This document shows positions 821-22,111 of a DNA stretch of 64,000 bases, piece after piece (position 1 is the stretch's first letter; each line of letters opens with the position of its first letter). The translations under genes and the position numbers were made by a program. Below the pieces are notes generated by a model, which ran no database searches, was not told the origin of the DNA, and saw nothing but the letters and a program-made list of their open reading frames with translations. This DNA comes from Magnetovibrio sp. Lineage in GTDB: Bacteria > Pseudomonadota > Alphaproteobacteria > Rhodospirillales > Casp-alpha2. The stretch lies in assembly GCA_002690705.1 (NCBI GenBank), contig NZFO01000005.1, forward strand, positions 126,711 to 190,710, given 5' to 3'.

Positions 821-922
821 CGGCTGGCAATGATGTTTTCATAAGTTAAAATCACCTGCCCGCTGAGTTTTAGATTTTTTAATTGGTATTGATGTGTGAA
901 GTTCACAGTTAGGAGAGTAGCC

Positions 923-3900
923 ATGCCCAAAGATGGCGCGGCCAGAAAGTTTCAGCACCCCCAGAGTTATGAGCCTAAAAACCACCTCCGGTTTATCACT
1001 GCAGCGAGCCTATTTGATGGTCATGATGCCTCGATTAACATCATGCGACGTATCTTGCAGGGGGCGGGCACAGAGGTTATTCACTTGGGCCATAACCGTG
1101 CTGTTGATGAAGTTGTTACAGCAGCAATTGCCGAGGACGCGCACGCGATTGCTGTTAGCTCATATCAGGGCGGTCATGTCGAATACTTTAAATACATGAT
1201 TGATTTGCTTCGTGAACGGGGCAGGCCCGAAATTCTTGTGTTCGGCGGTGGCGGAGGAGTGATTGTCGCTTCCGAAATACAAGAACTGCATGACTACGGA
1301 GTTACACGGATCTACTCGCCTAACGACGGTTATGAGATGGGCTTACCCGGCATGATAGCGGATATGATGCGACTAGCAGACCGCGACCTCGGGGAGGCAT
1401 TACCTTCGGAGATTTCGAGCCTACAAAGTGGTGAACCAGCAGTATTGGCTCGGATCATCACAGGTATGGAGCTCAACAGCATTGATCGTAAGATGCTCGA
1501 GAGTATCAGAGTAGTAGCTGATAATCACGCTGATGTGCCTGTGCTGGGGATAACCGGAACTGGCGGTGCGGGAAAGTCGTCATTAACCGACGAATTAATT
1601 CGAAGGTTTAGGTTATATTCTGGAGAGCCGAAAATCGCGATCATTGCTATCGATCCTACACGGCGACGGACCAACGGTGCATTGCTCGGTGATCGAATCC
1701 GCATGAATGCGATTGACTCGCCGAATATTTATATGCGGTCTTTGGCCACCCGAGGCGCGGGATCTGAGGTGGTGGAGGCAACTAGTGACATTATTGCAGC
1801 TTGTAAAGTAGCTGGGTATGAGCTCGTAATCATAGAGACACCTGGTATTGGTCAAGGTGATGGGGCAGTGGTCGAATTGGTCGATGTATCGCTGTACGTA
1901 ATGACACCAGAATATGGTGCTCAAAGCCAACTTGAGAAAATCGATATGCTTGACTTCGCTGATGCGGTTGCCATTAACAAATTTGATCGTAAAGGGGCGT
2001 TGGATGCACTGCGTGATGTCCGCAAACAGGTTCAGCGTAACCGCGAGGCCTTCGGTCAATCGCTCGACACAATGCCGGTTTTCGGCTGTATGGCGGCGAA
2101 ATTTGCCGACATTGGCGTAAGTGCTCTGTATCAGGAACTGCTGAGCCAGTTTGAAACTCTGGGACTCAATGGTTTTCCTTGCAAACTGTTGCCGGTCGAG
2201 GTCCGTCAATCTGAATTGGGCCAAGCAATTGTTCCTCCGGAGCGCGCGCGTTACCTAGCAGAGATAGCTGAAACGGTAAGGGACTATCACTATTTCATTT
2301 CGGAACAAACTCAAACAGCACGCGAGTCTCAGCAACTAAAAGCCGCAAAACAAATGCTCTTGGATGCAAAACAAGGGGAAGTTGGTACGGATTTAAATTC
2401 TTTGATTGCTGACCGGGATGCGCGGCTCGCTCCACGGGTTGTCGATTTGTTGGAGTCATGGCCGAGCGTAGTTGATAACTATTCTGGTGATAGAGGGATG
2501 ATCAAAATCCGTGATAAAGAGGTTTCTACAACTTTAAAAAGAGAGACGTTATCAGGTAATAAAGTTTCGCGCATTGCACTACCTAAGTACGAGGATCACG
2601 GAGAACTTGTGAAATGGTTGCTCAAGGAAAATCTGCCGGGTTTTTTCCCCTACACAGCCGGCGTTTTTGCTTTCAAGCGTGAAGGCGAGGACCCAACGAG
2701 GATGTTTGCAGGTGAGGGTGATGCTTTTCGCACAAATTCGCGGTTCAAGATGGTTTCGAGCGACTTTGAGGCCAAGCGACTTTCTACTGCCTTTGATTCG
2801 GTTACACTGTACGGCTTTGACCCTGACCTACGTCCAGATATTTATGGTAAAATTGGAAATTCAGGTGTTTCAATTGCAACACTTGAAGACATGAGGGTGC
2901 TATACGATGGATTTGATCTCTGCAATCCTTCAACGTCAGTTTCAATGACCATTAACGGGCCTGCACCGATGGTTATGGCGATGTTTTTGAACACTGCGAT
3001 AGATCAGCAAGTTGCAAAATTTGAGGTTGATAACGGACGATATCCATCAAAAAAAGAGTTTACAGAGTTATCCGAGTGGGTTCATGAGAATATTCGTGGG
3101 ACTGTTCAAGCGGATATTTTAAAGGAGGATCAAGGCCAGAACACCTGTATTTTCTCGACGGAATTTGCACTGAAATTGATGGCAGATGTTCAAGAATACT
3201 TTGTCAACCATAGAATTCGTAACTTCTATTCTGTATCTATCTCTGGGTACCATATTGCCGAAGCGGGGGCGAACCCCATATCTCAACTGGCATTTACATT
3301 GTCCAATGGCTTTACATTTGTTGAGGCATATCTTGCACGTGGAATGCAAATTGATGATTTTGCACCTAATTTATCCTTCTTTTTTTCAAATGGGATGGAC
3401 CCAGAGTATACCGTGATGGGCCGCGTGGCTAGGCGCATATGGGCGACAACAATGCGGTTTAAATACGGGGCCAATGAGCGCTCTCAAAAACTGAAATACC
3501 ACACACAAACGTCGGGTCGGTCTTTGCATGCTCAGGAGATGGATTTCAATGATATTCGAACAACCCTGCAAGCTTTGATCGCAACTTACGACAATACGAA
3601 CTCACTTCACACTAATGCCTATGATGAGGCTGTGACGACCCCTACCGCAGAGAGCGTGCGTCGCGCTGTCGCTATTCAGATGATTATAAATAATGAGTGG
3701 GGATTATCAAAAAATGAAAATCCGAATCAAGGAAGTTTTATTATTGATGAATTAACCGATTTGGTCGAAGAGGCGGTGCTACAGGAGTTTGATCGAATTT
3801 CAGAGCGTGGCGGGGTACTTGGTGCCATGGAGACAGGGTATCAGCGTGGTAAAATTCAAGAGGAGTCACTCTACTATGAGCACAAGAAACATGAGGGCTC

Positions 3901-4192
3901 GATTCCGATTATCGGTGTCAATACCTTCCTGAATCCTAATCCTTTGGTAGAGGACGTATTCGAATTGCAGCGTTCCACAGATTCAGAAAAACAAAGTCAA
4001 ATCAGCAGGTTAAATGATTTTCATAAAGTTAATATCGCGCATTCACCAGCTATGATTACGCGCCTCAAGCAAATTGCTACGGAAGGTGGAAACGTCTTTG
4101 AAGTGTTAGTAGACGCGGTGCGCGTCTGCTCGCTTGGACAAATTACTGAGGCTTTGTTCGATGCGGGGGGACAATACCGCCGTAATATGTAG
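923..4192 (+). CDS. icmF: Fused B12-dependent acyl-CoA mutase with GTPase chaperone (IcmF type)
   Basis: Adenosylcobalamin-dependent acyl-CoA mutase of the fused IcmF architecture. From the N-terminus: a B12-binding domain (DGHDAS near residue 31, GGGGG near 110), a MeaB/ArgK-like G-protein (P-loop GTGGAGKSS near 210, ETPGIGQGD near 304, NKFD near 351), and the large mutase barrel (YTAGVF near 577, [13 protein letters not shown]). Known IcmF enzymes interconvert isobutyryl- and butyryl-CoA, and some act on isovaleryl/pivalyl-CoA. The YTAGVF segment resembles IcmF rather than methylmalonyl-CoA mutase, which has TIRQYAG there. An in-frame GTG exists at 896, but AGGAGAG at 911-917 sits 5 bases before ATG 923, so I chose the latter (1089 residues). 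I see no B12 riboswitch in the leader. Confidence 0.93.
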
Positions 4193-4205
4193 TAAGATTG
4201 TGACC

Positions 4206-4469
4206 ATGAGAAGTCTTAAGCACCCTGCAGACGTTGGCCTTAGAGAAATCCTTTTTGAGTTTAAAAAAGTGGGACGCTACCTGAAAGTCTCCGCTATTGA
4301 CCCTTATACCTCTACTGAAGTATCGATGATAGGAGACCCCAAGCAGAGCGAGGAAGCATTAAAACGCGTCGCGACCAGAAAGCTTATATACGTCATGGAT
4401 AAAAAGGGATATTCCAAACGGGGCAGACGCCTTCCTCGTGGGCAAAGTCCTTTTGGGTTAAAAAGTTGA
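4206..4469 (+). CDS. Small DUF6898-type protein
   Basis: An 87-residue protein beginning 13 bases after icmF. The segment from REILFEFKKVG through VSAIDPYT and EVSMIGDP to LKRVATRKLIYVM matches, from memory, a small alphaproteobacterial family of unknown function now called DUF6898. It is basic at the C-terminus and has no signal peptide or membrane segment. The frame continues upstream inside icmF, but ATG 4206 puts the conserved block near the N-terminus as in relatives. Its 3' end overlaps the convergent broken mucR gene by 12 bases. No function can be assigned. Confidence 0.7.
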   Translation: MRSLKHPADVGLREILFEFKKVGRYLKVSAIDPYTSTEVSMIGDPKQSEEALKRVATRKLIYVMDKKGYSKRGRRLPRGQSPFGLKS

Positions 4470-4917
4470 CTTAAACCATGTAAATTTGCAATCAGAGACA
4501 GCCGGTTTGCCGAAGCCCATTTGCCTTGCAAAGCTGGAGCGCTGCTGAGAGTAATGCGCGGCAACCATTGGATAAGTAGGAGGCAAACTCCACCGCTTGC
4601 GATACTCCTTAGGCGTTAGTCCGGATGCTGCTTTTAAATGACGTTTTAACATCTTTAGGCGGCGCCCATCCTCTAAACACACTAAGAAATCGGGCGATAT
4701 CGACTTTGGAGATGGCGATAGCCGGACGCCGGGTCGGTTTTTGGGATTGTTCATTCGATTTTGAAGAAAGGTCTGATAAAGCTTCATAAATTGATTGAAT
4801 AATGGGCGAAATTGTCCCAAAATCCTACGGGGTTTTTAGAGAGATACCCCCTAAAATAGTCGATGTCATCCGCAGCACATGTGTATGGTTGAAACTGTCT
4901 TTATCCGAATCAGACAT
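4458..4917 (-). pseudogene. MucR/Ros-family regulator, broken by frameshifts
   Basis: The C-terminal half reads as MucR: SISPDFLVCLEDG, LKMLKRHL, LTPKEYRKRW, YPMVAAHYSQQRS. The matching N-terminal half lies upstream but in other frames: from ATG at 4917, MSDSDKD through VLRMTSTILGG; then YLSKNPVG in a second frame (MucR proteins usually have YVSNNPVP here); then ISPIIQSIYEALSDLSSK back in the first frame, which has a TAG at 4825-4827; then the zinc-finger part in a third frame. At least three indels are needed, two of them in G- and T-runs. The finger itself keeps Cys and the first His, but the other two ligand positions read Asp and Ser. An intact short protein from TTG 4820 or ATG 4757 is possible but would lack the oligomerisation half. 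Sequencing error is a second explanation. Confidence 0.75.
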
Positions 4918-5143
4918 GAACCTTTGCCTCCCCATACTTGTAATTATAGCCTATATCATAGAGTTTTGAGAGTTGTGGCATCAATGCAAAAATAGCGGTA
5001 ATTTTGATGTTTGTATTTTGTCCTGCAAAACATCGATGCCTTGTGTCTGTATTGGCATCGAAACTCCAGATATGGTATGAGAAATCTGAAGGATGGCTGA
5101 GGTGGTCGTCTTTAGTTGCAATTTTAGGACGTCGGGAACTATC

Positions 5144-5590
5144 ATGACAATTCGATCTATTGCACTTGCTTGTGATCATGCCGGGTTTCCGCTGAAGACT
5201 TTCCTTAGCCAAGTTGTTGTTGACGGTGGTCACAAAATACTCGATCTCGGCACAACGTCCCATGCTTCGGTTGACTATCCAGATTATGGGTTTGCAATGG
5301 CAAGTGCGTTAAACGCTGGAGATGCGGATAGAGGTATTCTTGTTTGTGGCAGTGGAATAGGTATTTCTATCGCTGCAAATCGCTTTCAAACCGTTCGAGC
5401 TGCTCTAATTCACGACGCTTTGGGTGCTCGGATGGCGCGACTTCACAATGATGCTAATGTCATATGTTTGGGTGCACGAATGATTGGTGAGGATGTTGCC
5501 AAAGATTGCGTGAATATTTTTCTAAATACAGCTTTTGAAGGCGGCCGTCACTTAACTCGCGTCGATAAGTTGAGCCAGCACGGGGCTTAA
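5144..5590 (+). CDS. rpiB: Ribose-5-phosphate isomerase B
   Basis: Interconverts ribose 5-phosphate and ribulose 5-phosphate in the pentose phosphate pathway. The 148-residue RpiB/LacAB fold shows the N-terminal ACDHAG, the phosphate/active-site loop CGSGIGISIAANR with the catalytic Cys, and ARLHNDANVICLGAR. The frame is open further upstream (ATG at 5093), but family members start a few residues before ACDHAG, so ATG 5144 is preferred. It precedes glyA by about 40 bases; rpiB-glyA-nrdR is a common alphaproteobacterial order and probably one transcript. Confidence 0.93.
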   Translation: MTIRSIALACDHAGFPLKTFLSQVVVDGGHKILDLGTTSHASVDYPDYGFAMASALNAGDADRGILVCGSGIGISIAANRFQTVRAALIHDALGARMARLHNDANVICLGARMIGEDVAKDCVNIFLNTAFEGGRHLTRVDKLSQHGA

Positions 5591-21796: not shown

Positions 21797-22111
21797 TTAG
21801 GAGCTGTTTTTTGTTTTTAGAGACCGACGACCGAGATCTGTGAGCTTACAAATGATCCAATTCGGTTTTACGGGATTTGAAAACCACGGTTCAACTAAAC
21901 CGTGCCTGAGACAGCTTCGCACTGTGCGTTCGTTGACTTTTTTACCCTGTTTGTCAAATAATGGAAGCTTACCTCCAGGTTGCGATAATCCGAGAGACAT
22001 CCATGCCCTTTGTTTATCGGTAGGTTGACTCGGGCGCGTCGGTGACTTAGTTCCGCTCTTGGAGCTAATCTTTACAAGAGCAGTGTTATCATTCTTTGGC
22101 ATAATGCTCAC
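21797..22111 (-). CDS. Small basic protein of unknown function
   Basis: 104 residues, not recognised. It has a low-complexity basic N-terminus (KISSKSGTKSPTRPSQ) and a compact C-terminal block: TDKQRAWMSLGLSQPGGKLPL, then VNERTVRSCLRHGLVEPWF and ICKLTDLGRRSL. The pattern of a helix, a basic recognition-like helix and a C-terminal LTDLGR looks like a small winged-helix fold, which is inference. The next gene on the right, cutA, is divergent. Confidence 0.6.
   Translation of the reverse strand: MSIMPKNDNTALVKISSKSGTKSPTRPSQPTDKQRAWMSLGLSQPGGKLPLFDKQGKKVNERTVRSCLRHGLVEPWFSNPVKPNWIICKLTDLGRRSLKTKNSS

Follow-up and report, generated by a model that had tools for sequence, protein, structure and literature searches.

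Whether this Magnetovibrio strain still makes a functional MucR regulator is the question raised by the minus strand between positions 4917 and 4458 of the window, the whole stretch of 64,000 nucleotides that was analysed. PMC8857273 describes MucR as a conserved alphaproteobacterial regulator that silences foreign genes rich in AT; in Sinorhizobium fredii its recruitment rises with AT content. The binding and silencing of AT-rich DNA as well as oligomerisation are reported for other MucR proteins in parts of PMC8857273 and PMC10746212. The first-pass annotation had described the gene in the window as decayed, both by frameshifts and by the loss of zinc ligands. The reading favoured here, with a probability of roughly 85%, is that of a probably young mucR pseudogene in the window and a paralogue on contig C7 that is frameshifted too, with full-length MucR most likely absent. 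Both copies of an H-NS-like silencer would then have been lost in a smaller lineage drifting towards AT.

Frame structure and neighbourhood of the mucR copies

The mucR homologue (PF05443, minus strand, 4917 to 4458) consists of four pieces, which occupy, in order, the minus-strand frames 1, 0, 1, and 2, as the earlier description of a gene spread over three frames had it. The first piece (4846–4917), aligned to the intact copy of the sister genome G001, comprises the N-terminal start and begins with the ATG at 4915–4917. Its frame runs into the previously noticed TAG at 4825–4827, a stop encountered solely as a result of the frame shift before it. The second piece (4820–4846) lies in a second frame, the third (4705–4818) regains the frame of the first, and the fourth (4461–4703), which encodes the DNA-binding finger domain, lies in a third frame followed by the TAA at 4458–4460. 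The open frame holding the fourth piece (4461–4820) matches PF05443 with an E-value of 2e-28 over profile positions 50 to 123 of 123. The observation is far above chance: an intact MucR is encoded at the same place in G001. Three separate small frame changes within approximately 145 bases split the gene, and no single continuous open frame of about 140 residues is left; the copy is therefore a pseudogene and not a functional member of PF05443. A disabled frame is thus found together with an intact, single-frame orthologue at the same locus of a sister genome, and the pseudogene is probably young.

The neighbouring genes are intact and syntenic. At lower coordinates, on the plus strand, lies a gene for a fused acyl-CoA mutase (896–4192, 81% identical to G001), which we take to be IcmF-like. 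It is followed by a DUF6898 gene (4134–4469, plus strand; PF21839, E-value 2.1e-22), whose last bases run into the end of the mucR pseudogene and which G001 and locus L008 have at the corresponding position. On the other side of mucR, an open frame on the plus strand (5093–5590), intact in the comparison with G001, is presumably rpiB-like. The gene order icmF-DUF6898-mucR-rpiB-glyA in G001 and L008 identifies this site as a conserved place of mucR; among the four loci scanned (L007, L008, L031, and L046) of 80 named ones, mucR was present in L008 only. Farther along the window, an open frame on the minus strand (21806–22105) shares 56% identity with a portion of a G001 ORF and has no Pfam match.

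The genome containing the window (G000; 3.03 Mb, 21 contigs, 96.5% complete) was searched for further copies. PF05443 matches were obtained at two loci only, the window and contig C7. The C7 copy is located at a tusA-mucR-fur locus and is frameshifted: the match with an E-value of 2.2e-30 covers profile positions 2 to 104 and continues in another frame over positions 97 to 119, and near its end there may be a further frame change. The supposition that paralogues may exist was therefore right as to their presence, but the one found is broken as well, and the search of the 96.5%-complete genome with PF05443 yielded no intact paralogue. G001 carries intact syntenic mucR genes at both loci, the second with the order tsaB-tusA-mucR-fur-miaB, and G002 carries an intact syntenic one at the fur locus. 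An intact mucR within the roughly 3.5% of the genome estimated to be missing is conceivable, although the two conserved sites are both covered by the assembly. Since the C7 paralogue is also frameshifted, full-length MucR is most likely missing from the cell.

Sequencing error, a truncated product, and recoding

The most serious alternative, to which we assign a small but real chance, is that the indels are artefacts of assembly or sequencing and that the organism itself has two intact mucR genes. The frame changes lie near short single-base runs, and the mucR pieces otherwise retain a recognisable coding sequence. Such proximity is a weak argument for error, because 45% of all positions in the window have a run of at least three bases no more than 3 bases away. 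To this must be added the state of the surrounding genes. Shadow and antisense ORFs were dropped, and forty hand-picked ORFs of G001 were aligned to the window and to the 20 kb surrounding the C7 copy. All 38 ORFs other than mucR (37 genes, with glyA in two parts) aligned in a single frame at a query coverage of 0.76–1.00, and the two mucR genes were the only broken ones of the 40. Stops in these 38 alignments occurred only within the first 53 columns, where the stop-to-stop queries reach upstream of the gene. Of 40 further ORFs of the window, mostly from 24 to 64 kb, 38 had a Pfam match, some covering the profile in part, and complementary parts of one Pfam family in adjacent ORFs were not found among them. 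A uniform sequencing error is ruled out by the single frames of the 38 neighbouring ORFs.

The residues encoded by the pieces also speak against error. Columns conserved in at least 95% (or 90%) of 42 intact copies were used as reference. At the 95% columns, the window copy has 7 deviations in 40 and the C7 copy has 4 in 40, whereas the intact copies have a median of 0 and a maximum of 4, the latter reached by the syntenic copy of G001 (4 of 43). At the 90% columns, the deviations are 15 of 53 and 6 of 53, respectively, against an intact maximum of 10 of 54. The window copy thus deviates more than each of the 42 intact copies; the C7 copy is not clearly above them, and its own orthologue in G001 shows 0 deviations at conserved columns. 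Because the syntenic copy of G001 itself deviates at 4 of 43 columns, the excess in the window copy is modest. Judged from these alignments, sequencing error is unlikely to be the cause of the frame changes in mucR.

Considerably less probable is a truncated product, in which the 120-codon 3′ open frame (4820–4458) would still be made as a DNA-binding domain lacking the N-terminal part and would serve as a plain repressor or as a competitor. The finger domain can be read in a single frame that starts with TTG, and according to PMC9779718 Ros still binds DNA after deletion of 55 N-terminal residues. Against such a product, the substitutions of conserved residues also affect the 3′ piece, and inspection by eye revealed no start with a well-placed ribosome-binding site. 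Moreover, the N-terminal half of MucR is needed for higher-order assembly. Expression by recoding, that is, ribosomal frameshifting or transcriptional slippage, is very improbable, for although the pieces retain their order and most conserved residues, three separate frame changes would have to be bridged within about 145 bases of a gene that is one continuous frame in the sister species. A probably young pseudogene accompanied by a second broken copy accounts best for the data.

Zinc ligands of the finger domain

At the positions corresponding to the Ros ligands C79, C82, H92, and H96/H97, the finger of the window copy carries C, D, H, and A/S. The count of two out of four ligand residues given earlier was accurate, but its interpretation as decay does not hold, as the same reduced set occurs in all 41 readable intact fingers of the family. 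For this comparison, 42 of the 51 full-length intact family matches were collected, two of them identical, and 41 were readable. The patterns were C-D-H-A-Y (27 fingers), C-D-H-S-Y (7), C-D-H-A-F (5), and C-D-Y-A-F (2). The second cysteine and the histidine serving as fourth ligand are absent in 41 of 41, including the syntenic copy of G001, and in two (L168 and L170) the first histidine is absent as well. Neither the window copy nor any of the 41 intact fingers is therefore a classical C2H2 Ros finger with two cysteines and two histidines.

The zinc ligands of Ros are C79, C82, H92, and H97 or H96, as given in a passage of PMC9779718, and DNA binding is described there as abolished when H96 and H97 are both mutated. 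The same source reports, in the part concerned, that relatives from Mesorhizobium loti use aspartate as a ligand or lack zinc and still bind DNA. Because intact relatives have the same ligands and the M. loti proteins provide a precedent, the two missing ligands are no sign of decay here. Loss of zinc ligands was accordingly rejected as a mark of decay, the intact MucR proteins of the family being equally reduced. This applies to the 41 readable MucR fingers of the family, while DNA binding by these zinc-poor proteins is putative. The fingers come from the family loci L087–L114, L168–L178, and L004–L006, among the 42 of 51 full-length matches collected, and would make this a family with zinc-poor or zinc-free MucR. 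Absent zinc ligands in a MucR of this family should consequently not be taken to imply decay.

The finger domain of the window aligns over the PF05443 profile, the family of MucR from Sinorhizobium, Brucella, and Caulobacter and of Ros from Agrobacterium (2jsp), and the intact MucR of G001 aligns to Ros 2jsp with an E-value of 3.6e-29. In contrast to these systems, the frame is broken in both copies of G000, and the ligands are C-D-H-A/S instead of C-C-H-H. The family MucR resembles the Ml proteins of M. loti (aspartate as second ligand, or no zinc) in having aspartate for the second cysteine; unlike them, the 41 readable members additionally lack the histidine of the fourth ligand.

Loss in the family, base composition, and consequences

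A PF05443 match was found in 41 of 48 genomes of the family. Two of these, G020 and G021, carry relics between tusA and fur as their single match per genome, with four in-frame stops (one TGA, one TAG, and two TAA) in G020 and one TAA and a scrambled finger in G021. The relics resemble the broken mucR of G000 in belonging to the same family, in lying at the fur locus, as the C7 copy does, and in their destroyed frame, but they contain in-frame stops and look older. Of their congeners, G018 has an intact mucR between tusA and fur, and an intact mucR is present in the G019 genome as well. G013, G014, G015, and G041 retain tsaB-tusA-fur-miaB in this sequence, and mucR was undetectable between their tusA and fur; congeners of G041 keep it at this site. 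Because congeners keep the intact gene, the losses in three genera (G000, G020 with G021, and G041) are independent, and those in the genus of G013 and in that of G014 and G015 are probably further independent ones. The state of mucR is undecided in G025, where the contig ends about 150 bases before fur, in G029, where fur was likewise not found, and in G046, which is 65% complete and has a distant Fur only. The gene family, the dispensability of zinc, and pseudogenisation are known. Literature on MucR in combination with pseudogene or frameshift, gene loss, GC content, and genome reduction contained no report of repeated mucR loss among the matches listed, in a thin search that is no proof of novelty.

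Several further observations concern the distribution of MucR and its partners. In the order, 197 of 225 genomes with at least 90% completeness have a PF05443 match, with the broken copies of G000 and G020 counted in. In genus g71 of family f16 (G171–G181), the match is absent in 11 of 11 genomes listed; the sampled GC content is 58–63% in the six readable ones, so that MucR is absent there without AT drift. Locus L167 (G043:C22, approximately 3010–3660, minus strand) contains two divergent MucR domains side by side, with a TGA reported inside one match, and G043 also carries a normal mucR on another contig. Loci L171 (G044) and L172 (G040) are of the same kind and encode an identical MucR protein; G040 has a second, different mucR at its fur locus (L098), and contamination of its bin (7%) is likely. 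SciP acts together with MucR in the cell-cycle circuit of Caulobacter. The SciP match (PF06627) is absent in G000 and present in its sister G001. At completeness of at least 90%, it is absent in 2 of 5 MucR losers versus 3 of 24 keepers, a comparison that does not support co-loss (Fisher p = 0.19). One flagellin match (PF00669) is retained in G000.

Within the family, losers and keepers differ in base composition. Among family genomes of at least 85% completeness, the median GC content is 47.5% in eight losers (the undecided G029 included) and 58.1% in 28 keepers (Mann–Whitney p = 1.1e-4, kinship ignored); without the completeness cut, ten losers and 38 keepers give p = 0.006. These GC values are estimates based on 6.7 to 84 kb sampled per genome, and samples within one genome sometimes diverge widely (42% and 63% in G004, 52% to 65% in G029). 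Within three genera picked after the data had been seen, 126 arrangements were compared; the observed one has the lowest rank for GC and falls in the lowest 2 for estimated genome size. Sizes are rounded values divided by completeness with contamination not removed, and may be overstated for the sister genomes G001 and G002 (8% and 6% contaminated). AT-rich keepers exist in the family, too (G017 with 48% and G016 with 50% GC). Outside the family, 40 genomes were hand-picked from the 225 of the order, namely 27 with a match and 13 of the 25 outside-family genomes without one (8 unlisted genomes being presumed to lie outside the family). In the 36 readable ones, an order-wide link of MucR absence to low GC is unsupported, with medians of 61.3% in the 12 genomes without and 61.9% in the 24 with a match (p = 0.58). 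AT drift is thus at most a correlate at the level of the family, inseparable from genome reduction.

What the assemblies show is that both copies of G000 are broken, that the neighbours compared are intact, that sister genomes have intact orthologues, that the window copy carries excess substitutions at conserved residues, and that losses recur elsewhere in the family. Losing both copies should lift the silencing of AT-rich genes, and the usual targets of MucR would be permanently de-repressed or rewired. That the loss is tolerated may point to few remaining targets, to rewired control, or to silencing being costly once a genome is richer in AT; in a smaller lineage drifting towards AT, silencing by MucR might no longer be needed or might be a burden. 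It is a rather speculative extension that AT drift makes MucR unusable, as it would then silence resident genes, and that AT-drifting lineages of the family lose it independently for this reason. If this were true, such genomes would show, as natural experiments, how cells live after losing a xenogeneic silencer. The matched losers and keepers (G000 with G001 and G002; G020 and G021 with G018 and G019; G041 with G042 to G045) allow one to ask how the loss of the silencer affects foreign genes, base composition, and surface functions.
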